From contig JAKAJL010000017.1 of the NCBI GenBank assembly GCA_021813805.1, positions 1 to 64,000 on the forward strand: 64,000 bases of DNA, written 5' to 3'. How positions within the stretch are numbered: the first letter of the stretch is position 1; each line of letters starts with the position of its first letter. Source of the DNA: Pseudomonadota bacterium (GTDB lineage Bacteria; Pseudomonadota; Alphaproteobacteria; Rhizobiales; Beijerinckiaceae). The position numbers were made by a program, and so were the translations under genes. Under the pieces are notes generated by a model. The model was given only the letters and a program-made list of their open reading frames with translations. It was not told where the DNA came from and ran no database searches. This document shows, one piece after another, positions 19,679-58,525 of this stretch.

Positions 19679-21763
19679 ATGAAAATTCTCGGCGTCGCCG
19701 TAGCGCTTTTCGGCCTCATGTCCGGCTTCGTCGGTCTTGAGTTTGCCAATCCCACGCTCGACCTCCTCGCGGTCGCCAGCCTGATCGTCGCATATTGTTG
19801 CTGGCGTAGCGCGCCGGTCTCCCGTTTCCTGAAAATCTTCATCGCCCTATTTGCAGCCGAAACCATCGTCTTCGGACTCGCGGACCTGGCTGCTCGTTTC
19901 GATTTCTGGCCGAAATCCCTTGCGGAGGCGCGGGTGCCTCCGACCTTGGCGCTGACGGTCGCCATGTTCGCGATTATTGTTTTCGTGGTCTCGCATATTC
20001 CCGTTGTGCGCACAATGACCAGAATCGCGGACCGTTTCTTCCTCGCGACCGATCAGACGAGCGCCGGAATTGCCAGCTTCCGCTTCAAAACCCTGGAGCG
20101 CACATTGGCCACCGGCATGGTCGTCTTTCTTGTCGTGCTCAACCAGGCGGAAGTAGCGATCACGGTGCGTCTCAATTTTTTCAATCGTGATTTCTTCAAT
20201 GCGATCCAGAATCACGATGCTCCGGTATTCTGGCGCATGCTCCTCTGGGTCTTCACGCCCTGGGCGTTTATTTATGTCGGCGCCCTGGTCGTGGAATATG
20301 TCGTCAGCTCATATCTCGTCATCCGCTGGCGGCGCTGGCTGACACAATTTTATATTTCCCATTGGCTCAGCCATCATGCGCATTACCGCATGTCTCTCAC
20401 ACGCGGACCCACCGATAATCCCGACCAACGTATCGCTGAAGACGTGGCCCGCTTCATCGACGGCGGCGGCGACGGCGGCGCCTTTGGTTATGGCGTCTAT
20501 AATTATTCGATCATGCTGATCTCGACTTTGTCATCGCTCGTCTCTTTCGCCATTCTATTATGGAGTCTTTCCGCGAATTTCACCGTCCCGGGAACGAATT
20601 TCGCTTTTCCGGGCCTGCTTTTCTGGGTCGCCTTGATCTATGCCGCCGCCGGCACCGTGATCACCCATCTCATCGGTCGGCCATTGGTCGAGATCATGTT
20701 CACCCGGCAGAAGGTCGAGGCGGATTTCCGTTTCGGTCTGGCGCGGTTGCGCGAATTTAGCGAACAGGTCGCGCTGCTCGAAGGCGAACACGCCGAGGCC
20801 GTCTCCTTGCGAATGAAATTCGCCGCCCTGATTGCCAATTACATTGACATGATCAATCTTCGCAAGAAACTGACGGCCTTTACGGGCTTTTATGGCCAGA
20901 TCAGCCCGATCATTCCCTATATTTTCGCTGCGCCCTTTTATTTCGCCAGGAAAATCGAGCTCGGCGTGATGACCCAGACTGCGCAAGCCTTCGGCCAGGT
21001 CCAGAGCGCGCTTACTTTCTTCATCAATTATTATACGTCGCTGGCCGGGTTCCGTGCCGTCCTCGACCGCCTCAGCTCTTTCGACGCCGCGATCGAAGGC
21101 GCGCAGACGGGCCAGGCGTTCAAGATCGAGCAGAACGCGCCGTCGCCGGCGCTGCGTCATGCAACCATTGCCCTGCCAAACGGAACCGCCCTGTTGGACG
21201 GCGTCGACTTCGCGCTAAAGCCTGGACGGAACTTGCTCGTCACTGGTCTGTCAGGATCTGGAAAATCTACTTTGTTCCGGGCCATATCGGGCATATGGCC
21301 ATTCGGCGCCGGCACGGTCTCCATCCCCGCTTCGGGGAAAATGATGCTGTTGCCACAAAAGCCCTATCTTCCGATTGGCTCCTTGCGCGAGGCAGTCGTC
21401 TATCCCTCGGCGTCGAAAATCTATGACGACAAGGAAATCGCCGCCGCGCTTCGTGACGCCCAACTGCCCCATCTCGCCAACAAGCTGGACATTTCCGATC
21501 TCTGGTCTCAGCGGCTCTCGGGCGGCGAACAGCAGCGTGTGGCGATTGCTCGCGCTCTTCTGGCAAAACCGGACTGGCTCCTGCTCGACGAGGCCACTAC
21601 GGCTCTCGACGAGGAAACGGAGAACGCAATTTACGAAATGCTTGCGAAGCGCTTGCCACAAACGACAGTCGTTTCGATCGGGCATCGTTCAACGCTGGGC
21701 GCCTTCCACGTTGACCATATCCAGGTGCGATCGGGCGCCGTCGTCGTCTGCGCAGAAACTTGA
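19679..21763 (+). CDS. SbmA/BacA-YddA type ABC transporter, fused permease and ATPase
   Basis: 694 residues. N-terminal hydrophobic segments (several helices in 1-120) precede the SbmA/BacA-like membrane domain (FFNRDFFNAIQNHD; RWRRWLTQFYISHWL; TDNPDQRIAEDVARF), which lies at about 130-470. The ATPase domain carries Walker A GLSGSGKST at about 523-531, signature LSGGEQQRVA at about 613, and Walker B LLLDEATTALD. Proteins of this ABCD-like half-transporter group are annotated as vitamin B12, bleomycin or antimicrobial-peptide importers; related BacA matters for rhizobial symbiosis. The substrate here is unknown. The extra N-terminal membrane region before the BacA-like domain is longer than in E. 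coli YddA. It is 91 bases after ribF, possibly its own unit. Confidence 0.88.
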   Translation: MKILGVAVALFGLMSGFVGLEFANPTLDLLAVASLIVAYCCWRSAPVSRFLKIFIALFAAETIVFGLADLAARFDFWPKSLAEARVPPTLALTVAMFAIIVFVVSHIPVVRTMTRIADRFFLATDQTSAGIASFRFKTLERTLATGMVVFLVVLNQAEVAITVRLNFFNRDFFNAIQNHDAPVFWRMLLWVFTPWAFIYVGALVVEYVVSSYLVIRWRRWLTQFYISHWLSHHAHYRMSLTRGPTDNPDQRIAEDVARFIDGGGDGGAFGYGVYNYSIMLISTLSSLVSFAILLWSLSANFTVPGTNFAFPGLLFWVALIYAAAGTVITHLIGRPLVEIMFTRQKVEADFRFGLARLREFSEQVALLEGEHAEAVSLRMKFAALIANYIDMINLRKKLTAFTGFYGQISPIIPYIFAAPFYFARKIELGVMTQTAQAFGQVQSALTFFINYYTSLAGFRAVLDRLSSFDAAIEGAQTGQAFKIEQNAPSPALRHATIALPNGTALLDGVDFALKPGRNLLVTGLSGSGKSTLFRAISGIWPFGAGTVSIPASGKMMLLPQKPYLPIGSLREAVVYPSASKIYDDKEIAAALRDAQLPHLANKLDISDLWSQRLSGGEQQRVAIARALLAKPDWLLLDEATTALDEETENAIYEMLAKRLPQTTVVSIGHRSTLGAFHVDHIQVRSGAVVVCAET

Positions 21764-56683: not shown

Positions 56684-56708
56684 GGAACAGTAGCTTATCC
56701 TTCGTGTT
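56684..56708 (+). promoter_or_regulatory. EcfG-type general-stress promoter upstream of 56767
   Basis: GGAAC (56684-56688), 17 bases, GTT (56706-56708), the consensus used by EcfG/RpoE2 in Alphaproteobacteria. The GTT ends 59 bases before the ATG at 56767. The copy at 57180 has the same spacing and nearly the same distance to its gene. Confidence 0.65.
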
Positions 56709-56766
56709 GCTCCAGCATGAGACGAAGGCGGCAAGGGCGGCGCGTCCTTTCCGGGAAATATTCGTC

Positions 56767-57053
56767 ATGACCCTTTTTGCTCATATTCCTAAAGCCGCGA
56801 TGGTCGCGGCGCGCGTCCCGCTGGGCGCTCTGGCCTATGGGCCAAGCGCGCACGCTTTTGGCGGACATGGCGCCGGCGGTCATTTCGGCGGCTATGGTTG
56901 GGGCGGTTGGGGCTATCCCTACGGCGTCGGCTGGTGTTGCTGGGCCTATTACGACGACTATGGCTATTACGACGAGGCGCCACCTGCGTCCTGCGCCGGG
57001 CGCCTGTGCGCACCGTCCACGGCTGGCGGTGGCGCATGTACGAATATTGCTGA
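56767..57053 (+). pseudogene. Gly/Tyr-rich exported protein, apparently frameshifted
   Basis: From ATG 56767 the frame encodes a signal-peptide-like start and a FGGHGAGGHFGGYGWGGWGYPYG segment, in part GGHGAGGHFGGYG, matching the paralogue at 57265. That frame then runs as unrelated sequence to 57066. In the -1 frame from about 56999, the sequence PVRTVHGWRWRMYEYC followed by a stop at 57051-57053 matches the paralogue end HVHTRHGWRWRRVRYCYQ. A one-base indel between about 56975 and 57000 explains both. It may be a real pseudogene or a sequencing error. Confidence 0.65.
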
Positions 57054-57179
57054 GATCCTCGCCTGAAACGCCGGATCGTCGGCAGGTCAAGACCTTCCCC
57101 ACTCCGGACTCGCGCCGCTTCCTCGTTCTTCCGGGGAAGCCGCTGATTTTCGCTCCACAACTGACCCAGGCAGCATTTT

Positions 57180-57204
57180 GGAACGAAAGCGTGGCCATTG
57201 CGTT
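57180..57204 (+). promoter_or_regulatory. EcfG-type general-stress promoter upstream of 57265
   Basis: GGAAC (57180-57184), 16 bases, CGTT (57201-57204): a full match to the alphaproteobacterial EcfG consensus. It ends 61 bases before the ATG at 57265. Confidence 0.7.
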
Positions 57205-57264
57205 CAGCAAAGGTTCAGAAGCGTCAGCATAAAATTCAGGGAAAGGGTGTGAGGAGGTTTCGCC

Positions 57265-57747
57265 ATGGCGATATCCGATAGTGTGATCAAGGCGCTGTCT
57301 GTGGCGACGATGACGGCGGGCGCGCTCCTGCTCGCGGAGCCGGCTTTTGCGTTCGGCCATGGCGGCGGCGGTCATTTCGGCGGCGGTCATTTCGGCGGCA
57401 TGGGTCGCGGCTTCGGCGGCGGCGGTTTCGGCCGCGGTTTCGGCGGTGGCGGCCTTAATGCAATGCACGCCATGCCCGGCGGCGCGATGGGCGGGCGCTA
57501 CGGCCACTGGCATAACGGCTACTGGCGTCATGGCCGCTGGTACAACGGCGGCTGGGGCTATGGCGGCTATGGATGGGGCGGCTGGGGCTATCCCTATTAT
57601 GGCTGGGGCTGGGGCTATGACCCCGGTTGGTGGGGTGACGACTATTACTACGCCATGCCGGTCTATACTCAGTGCTATATTCGGCGCGTTCACGTCCACA
57701 CGCGCCACGGCTGGCGCTGGCGCCGGGTGCGTTATTGCTATCAATGA
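57265..57747 (+). CDS. Gly/Trp/Tyr-rich exported protein
   Basis: 160 residues. A signal peptide (1-30, cleavage near EPAFA-F) precedes a mature protein made mostly of G, H, F, W and Y in short repeats such as GGGHFGG, GGWGYGGYGWGGWGYPYYG, in part GWGYGGYGWGGWG. It ends CYIRRVHVHTRHGWRWRRVR, a basic tail with one Cys. Composition resembles sulfur-globule-like and other Gly-rich structural proteins, but that is only a resemblance. GAGGAGG is well placed before the ATG. An EcfG-type promoter lies upstream and a hairpin terminator downstream, so it is a single-gene, probably stress-induced unit. It is a paralogue of the broken copy at 56767. Confidence 0.8.
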   Translation: MAISDSVIKALSVATMTAGALLLAEPAFAFGHGGGGHFGGGHFGGMGRGFGGGGFGRGFGGGGLNAMHAMPGGAMGGRYGHWHNGYWRHGRWYNGGWGYGGYGWGGWGYPYYGWGWGYDPGWWGDDYYYAMPVYTQCYIRRVHVHTRHGWRWRRVRYCYQ

Positions 57748-57758
57748 GGCTGACGAAG

Positions 57759-57774
57759 CCGGCCTCCAGGCCGG
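57759..57774 (+). terminator. Putative terminator after the Gly-rich gene
   Basis: CCGGCCT and AGGCCGG form an inverted repeat with a two-base spacer (effective loop TCCA after opening one pair), followed by GTTTGTT. It lies 12 bases past the stop at 57747 and faces the convergent methyltransferase gene. Confidence 0.5.
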
Positions 57775-57781
57775 GTTTGTT

Positions 57782-58525
57782 CTAATCCTCGAAGATCCGG
57801 CGGCCGTGACGGTGAATATCGTCCGCCAACGGCGTGAAACGTCCGTCCGCTTCATGCAGAACGAAGCCCGGCAGCAAGGCGAGCGGGCCCTTGGAGCCCT
57901 TGCGGCCGCGCAGGATCACCCGCATCGCCTTCTCGCCCTCACGCGGGAAAATCGGAACCAGGCGAAGTTCGCCGAGCCGGCTGCGGGTCGCGGCGAGCAG
58001 TTCGGCCAGGGCGTCGGCGCGGTGAATGGCGACCAGGACTCCGCTTGGGCGCAACAGGCTGAGCGCGGCGTGCAGCCATTTCTCCACGCCGCCCTCATCC
58101 AGCACATGGGCCATGGCCCGGTCGGGGTCAGGGGAGACCCGCGCCGCGCCGGGCGTCAGGTAAGGCGGATTGGTGACGACGAGATCGGCGGCCTCGCTTA
58201 AATTCGCCGCCCTGCGCGCCCCCGGGTCGAACAGGTCAGCCTCAACCACGCGAACGCGGTCCGCAAGCCCATTGAGCGGAATATTCTCGCGGGCTAGCGC
58301 CGCGGCGGCGGGGTTCTTTTCAAGAAGCGCGACGCTCGCCTGCGGGTTCCATAAAGCCAAGGCAAGGCCGACAGCCCCGACGCCCGCACCCACGTCCACG
58401 ATCAGTCCGCCTGCGATTTTGGGCGCGGCGGCGGCGAGCAGGACCGCGTCTGCGCCAACGCGATGTCCGCGCGCCGGCTGGCGCAGGCTTACGCTTCCAT
58501 CGAACAGTCCGTCCACGTCAGGCAT
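57782..58525 (-). CDS. tRNA1(Val) (adenine(37)-N6)-methyltransferase-like protein
   Basis: 247 residues. It has the TrmN6/YfiC-type layout: the start VSLRQPARGHRVGADAVLLAAA, in part RQPARGHRVGADAVLL, the SAM motif IVDVGAGVGAVGLALA, the catalytic NPPY in LVVTNPPYLTP, and a late KAMRVILRGRKGS. The E. coli enzyme methylates A37 of tRNA1(Val); substrate here is inferred. The start is ATG 58525, overlapping the stop of the DUF2007 gene by eight bases (ATGCCTGA); the frame extends to 58639 only as overlap. The pair DUF2007-methyltransferase next to a polyprenyl synthase is a recurring Hyphomicrobiales arrangement. Confidence 0.88.
   Translation of the reverse strand: MPDVDGLFDGSVSLRQPARGHRVGADAVLLAAAAPKIAGGLIVDVGAGVGAVGLALALWNPQASVALLEKNPAAAALARENIPLNGLADRVRVVEADLFDPGARRAANLSEAADLVVTNPPYLTPGAARVSPDPDRAMAHVLDEGGVEKWLHAALSLLRPSGVLVAIHRADALAELLAATRSRLGELRLVPIFPREGEKAMRVILRGRKGSKGPLALLPGFVLHEADGRFTPLADDIHRHGRRIFED

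Follow-up and report, generated by a model that had tools for sequence, protein, structure and literature searches.

The window, a 64,000-nucleotide stretch of a Rhodoblastus-type genome (G000 below), carries two sites of the form GGAAC-N17-GTT, each a short distance before a gene for a Gly/Tyr/Trp-rich protein. These paired sites raise the question: Are they two copies of one general stress promoter, or does each have its own regulatory logic? The initial annotation read them as matching EcfG-type promoters over a duplicated promoter-gene unit. Both sites lie where it had placed them (Table 1), and its estimate that they end about 60 bases before the start codons was accurate, the distances being 58 bases for the upstream site (P1; ATG 56767) and 60 for the downstream site (P2; ATG 57265). 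Both also have the GGAAC, the CGTT-like -10 and the 16-17 base spacing of the EcfG/RpoE2-type promoters of Alphaproteobacteria (GGAAC-N16/17-CGTT), but only P2 has the full consensus, GGAAC-N16-CGTT, whereas P1 reads GGAAC-N16-TGTT, one base off in its -10. In the accessible text of a study of Sphingopyxis, EcfG promoters have -35 elements in which AAC is nearly invariant, combined with up to 14 different -10 boxes (PMC7083833), a variety into which TGTT at P1 fits.

Table 1. Features of the region holding the two EcfG-type sites, in window coordinates.
Feature	Coordinates	Strand	Details
P1, EcfG-type promoter	56684..56708	+	-35 GGAAC 56684-56688; -10 TGTT 56705-56708
Gene 1	56767..57066	+	Apparent paralogue among Gly/Tyr/Trp-rich exported proteins; frameshifted before conserved C-terminus
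P2, EcfG consensus	57180..57204	+	-35 GGAAC 57180-57184; -10 CGTT 57201-57204
FeuP-type box	57202..57218	+	GTTCAG-CAAAG-GTTCAG (TTCA-N7-TTCA); overlaps P2 -10
Predicted sigma70-type -10	57230..57235	+	TAAAAT; predicted start near 57242
Gene 2	57265..57747	+	Intact 160-aa Gly/Tyr/Trp-rich exported protein; C-terminal C-x2-RR-V...RRVRYC motif

The genome does not lack EcfG. As the initial annotation had anticipated, an intact phyR-nepR-ecfG locus is present at G000:C52, with EcfG, NepR and PhyR encoded together and the single NepR gene of the genome lying between the divergent PhyR gene and the ECF sigma gene, which is the standard arrangement. The phyR-nepR gap itself contains GGAAC-N17-GTT. 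The genome-wide scan for GGAAC-N16/17-CGTT that the annotation had also proposed was less helpful: the whole 3.67-Mb genome has 37 exact matches to GGAACN{16,17}CGTT, P2 among them, versus 86 in the reversed control, and so shows no enrichment. Within the window, GGAACN{15,18}GTT occurs six times versus 6.35 times in shuffles, no excess over chance. With counts at or below those of the controls, I do not take the number of matches as proof that EcfG is in control; the evidence must rest on conservation.

Thirty of the 37 exact matches were inspected by a crude test, which assigned 18 to long open frames beginning with ATG and left 12 outside such frames. P2 itself falls among the 18 owing to an antisense frame. 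An open frame of 386 codons (window 56695-57855, minus strand) runs against genes 1 and 2 and is probably a by-product of GC-rich coding. Three exact GGAAC-N16-CGTT sites lie in apparent gaps (L005 and L006 on contig C22, L009 on C23), 71, 50 and 33 bases before ATGs, respectively. The downstream products look by eye like a short exported protein, a His/Tyr-rich exported protein and a bacterioferritin-like protein, respectively, and the three genes are likely further EcfG targets.

The comparison set comprised all 11 available genomes of the window's genus, compared at the glyQ locus; a midpoint-rooted glyQ tree sets the group G001-G005-G008-G004 apart from a second group of the remaining seven genomes, to which G000 belongs. 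P1 was found in five of the 11 (G000, G003, G006, G007 and G010), with a mean pairwise identity of 1.00 in the -35, 0.72 in the -10 and 0.37 in the 16-base spacer, the last no better than the downstream sequence. The -10 is CGTT in three of these genomes, TGTT in G000 and AATT in G007. Selection on two boxes but not on the spacer between them is expected of an EcfG promoter and is the pattern observed here, and P1 is plausibly a plain EcfG (general stress) promoter. G003 and G006 have no gene 1 and yet keep P1 as an exact GGAAC-N16-CGTT, which lies 103 bases (G003) and 189 bases (G006) ahead of P2.

Gene 1 is less well preserved than its promoter. The description of both genes as coding for Gly/Tyr/Trp-rich exported proteins stands for gene 2, which is intact. 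For gene 1 it needs qualifying: the gene reads as a single open frame in G010, but G000 and G007 each carry a frameshift, and not at the same site. In the window, its open frame lacks the C-terminus of the family, and the tail, ...VLRRAPVRTVHGWRWRMYEYC followed by a stop, is found in another frame, ending at 57053. This frameshift in G000 may stem from a sequencing or assembly error. Programmed frameshifting was set aside because the breaks in the G000 and G007 copies do not coincide and because no gene 1 is left in G003 or G006. The G010 version of gene 1 matches gene 2 with E = 1e-6, partly through low-complexity sequence, and on this basis the two look paralogous.

The gene 2 product has a signal-peptide-like start (judged by eye), and the Gly-rich proteins matched no family in Pfam or NCBIfam. 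A wider search (E <= 0.001) returned relatives of gene 2 in 10 of 60 genomes, nine of them in the genus, including G000, and one a weak match outside. In a collection of named genomes, six loci have gene 2 relatives: four are named Rhodoblastus (one being R. acidophilus DSM 137 and one uncultured) and two belong to Proteobacteria bins. The promoter regions at these six are those of the genomes of the window's genus, a comparison made by eye except for L194. Gene 2 has been lost twice from the gap between glyQ and the methyltransferase gene, once down to its last codons (L089, G001) and once by an internal deletion that left a remnant (L093, G004), and these Gly-rich genes decay often in the genus.

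GGAAC-N16-CGTT precedes gene 2 in six of the 11 genomes (G000, G002, G003, G006, G007 and G010), where the boxes have an identity of 1.00 and the spacer one of 0.88. This conservation begins sharply at GGAAC, the preceding 30 bases being 24-35% identical, and continues at 80% over the next 16 bases past the -10. A spacer 88% conserved is unlike a plain EcfG promoter, and the GGAAC block may therefore serve another protein. Furthermore, P1 and P2 have no evident sequence in common beyond the consensus.

The first reading had missed a direct repeat that overlaps P2. This repeat, GTTCAG-N5-GTTCAG with an 11-bp period, is the sole exact copy in G000, and its first bases are common to the -10 of P2. 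All 11 genomes have it ahead of gene 2 or what is left of that gene (the first half-site is CTCA in G004), including the five that have no GGAAC there, and in G001 it survives although a deletion has removed all of gene 2 but the last codons. Since the repeat is genus-wide and GGAAC occurs in only part of the genus, the repeat is probably the older element.

These distributions bear on the view that P1 and P2 form a duplicated EcfG promoter-gene unit with nothing else acting at P2. Both are plausible EcfG sites with the consensus spacing and the same distance to the gene, the EcfG locus is present, and the two genes appear to be paralogues. Yet gene 1 is frameshifted, the two sites resemble each other in the consensus alone, and P2 is composite: the element kept throughout the genus is not GGAAC but the repeat, a FeuP-type box with a -10 of its own in register, as described below. 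I consider a simple duplication improbable.

What reads this repeat? Among 41 genomes, GTTCAG-N5-GTTCAG has 62 matches, versus 14 for the reversed control. One of them, in G022, precedes a gene for a small protein whose PepSY match is weak and falls short of the Pfam cut-off, with genes for an OmpR-family regulator and a kinase alongside. With the G022 regulator as query, a match was found in 40 of the 41 genomes, and in 29 of the best 30 loci returned from those 40, the window's own genome included, TTCA-N7-TTCA lies upstream of the feuP-type operon. In the same 30 loci the remaining spacings between N2 and N15 each occur in zero to two, and the N7 pattern on the reverse strand in two. The regulator of the window's genome (G000:C49) is 71% identical, over the whole query, to the protein annotated as FeuP in Sinorhizobium meliloti Ak57 and, with a neighbouring kinase and small exported protein, is a FeuP orthologue; the small exported protein matched no Pfam or NCBIfam family.

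According to the accessible text of Schluter et al. (2013; PMC3616915), 12 S. meliloti genes have TTCA-N7-TTCA (Motif 3) in their upstream regions, five of these genes having been identified earlier as FeuP-dependent, and the motif is proposed as a candidate FeuP site. In S. meliloti the repeat precedes both feuN and ndvA, in the latter case about 320 bases before the start. However, ndvA had to be rejected as a marker of the box in general: the chvA/ndvA-type loci of relatives have the repeat in none of 30 within 1,500 bases upstream, versus one of one in S. meliloti Ak57.

Sites of OmpR-family regulators are often 11-bp direct repeats, and the box might for that reason be read by some other member of the family rather than by the FeuP orthologue. 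G000 does encode a second, less similar member, 51% identical to the FeuP-type query. However, feuP-type operons themselves have the box in front of them in 29 of the 30 loci, as do S. meliloti feuN and ndvA, and the box matches the published candidate FeuP motif, so that another reader seems unlikely. A FeuP-type regulator is the reader I assume from here on.

The box also has a fixed relation to a putative -10. With the first base of the box numbered 0, A occupies position 29 in 17 of 19 feuN promoters (18 from outside the genus plus that of G000) and in nine of the 11 gene 2 promoters; at position 28, 16 of the 19 feuN promoters have a pyrimidine (C or T). By hand count, positions 28-33 read TAATGA at S. 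meliloti feuN and GATAAT at ndvA, both of which fit this register. Before gene 2, TAAAAT stands at the same register as a sigma70-like -10, and the start predicted from it puts the repeat at about -40 to -24. In class II activation by PhoB/OmpR regulators, direct repeats replace the -35, and the repeat here would, judging from the register, occupy the corresponding position. With the box before feuP-type operons and its -10 register fixed, FeuP targets should be predictable from sequence.

At L113 and other feuN-type promoters of this genus, about 39-40 bases separate the beginning of the box from the first ATG of the small gene before feuP, which puts that ATG near the predicted transcription start, so that the mRNA may be leaderless there; the annotated start codon of S. 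meliloti feuN is further from the box.

Is the combination of GGAAC and box peculiar to gene 2? Twenty of 298 genomes of the family contain GGAACN{16,17}GTTCAN7TTCA, with 26 matches in all, versus eight in the reversed control; outside the genus the figures are 16 and six, a modest excess, with several of the matches inside long open frames. Six of the 26 are at gene 2, and three (G002, G003 and G006) precede another small exported Gly/Tyr-rich gene, with GGAAC-N16-(C/T)GTT at the same spacing from the box. The product of this second gene is not alignable with that of gene 2 by BLASTP (E 2.1) but has a similar end, C...RR...RRIRVC. A search seeded with the three GGAAC-bearing copies gave best matches in 10 of the 11 genomes, with the repeat in 10 of 10 and GGAAC in three, a count that takes in diverged copies of the G001 group whose orthology is presumed from sequence; four further, weaker copies have no repeat. 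The copy in the window's own genome (L182; G000:C31, about 20130-20146) has the FeuP-type box without GGAAC at the EcfG spacing. The spacer of P2 (57185-57200) is GAAAGCGTGGCCATTG, and that of the second composite begins partly alike, GGAACGgaatGCG.

GGAAC and the GTT of the first half-site tend to occur together: all nine boxes with GGAAC have GTT, versus six of the 12 without (Fisher p 0.017, with no correction for the relatedness of the rows). At feuN, exact GGAAC at the P2-type spacing accompanies none of 29 boxes and GGAAC with one mismatch accompanies three, on which grounds I rejected GGAAC as an inherent part of the FeuP box.

This matters for a further reading, in which gene 2 would answer to a FeuP-type regulator only, GGAAC being part of an extended site for that regulator or a different one and the EcfG match accidental. 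The strong conservation of the P2 spacer, the patchiness of GGAAC beside a genus-wide box and the lack of enrichment in the motif counts all speak in its favour. Against it, the conservation begins exactly at GGAAC, a second gene shows the GGAAC-N16-(C/T)GTT spacing too, GGAAC and GTT co-occur, the feuN boxes do without an exact GGAAC at that spacing, and P1, a plain EcfG-type site, lies nearby. I regard this reading as possible though rather unlikely, if less so than a simple duplication or a different regulator.

The account I favour, with moderate confidence, is that P1 is an ordinary EcfG promoter and that gene 2 is a member of the FeuP regulon on which an EcfG promoter has been superimposed in one clade. 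Gene 2 would belong primarily to the FeuQ-FeuP (envelope/osmotic) regulon, with a presumed envelope role for its product. The FeuP-type regulator would bind the repeat at the position given above and recruit the housekeeping polymerase to the predicted -10 for a start near 57242. In one clade, a GGAAC located 16 bases upstream of CGTT, itself part of the first half-site, would make the same stretch an EcfG promoter too, with a start predicted at about 57209-57214. Because the EcfG site of P2 overlaps the box, FeuP bound there would be expected to keep EcfG-polymerase off, and vice versa, and gene 2 could then be expressed under either signal through two alternative, mutually exclusive starts roughly 30 bases apart. 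Counting against this account, GGAAC is absent at gene 2 in five of the 11 genomes and at the second gene in seven of 10, including G000. The main fact that it leaves unexplained is the conserved spacer of P2, where another protein may bind. More tentatively than the account itself, I suggest that a FeuP-type half-site was exapted as an EcfG -10 (CGTTCAG) at two exported-protein genes, giving a switch between envelope and general stress.

How does this arrangement compare with known systems? P1 and P2 resemble known EcfG/RpoE2-type promoters in -35, -10 and spacing, apart from the one base in the -10 of P1, but P2 differs from them in its conserved spacer and in a -10 shared with the half-site of a response regulator. 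The box has the half-sites and 11-bp period of S. meliloti Motif 3, with the -10 in the same register, but here it stands before a gene for a Gly-rich exported protein in a Rhodoblastus-type genome and is overlapped by an EcfG consensus. The accessible portions of the literature on FeuP with EcfG or RpoE2, and on Rhodoblastus with EcfG, describe no overlap of the two sites. A repeat first proposed in S. meliloti precedes the feuP-type operon almost throughout the loci of the order examined, and gene 2 offers a directly testable case in which the PhyR-NepR-EcfG and FeuQ-FeuP envelope/osmotic pathways may meet on the same few bases. Two of the composite matches (L158 in G424 and L159 in G381) lie just before the gene for another OmpR-family regulator; both contain oppositely oriented GAAC/TGAAC repeats and are perhaps divergent boxes.
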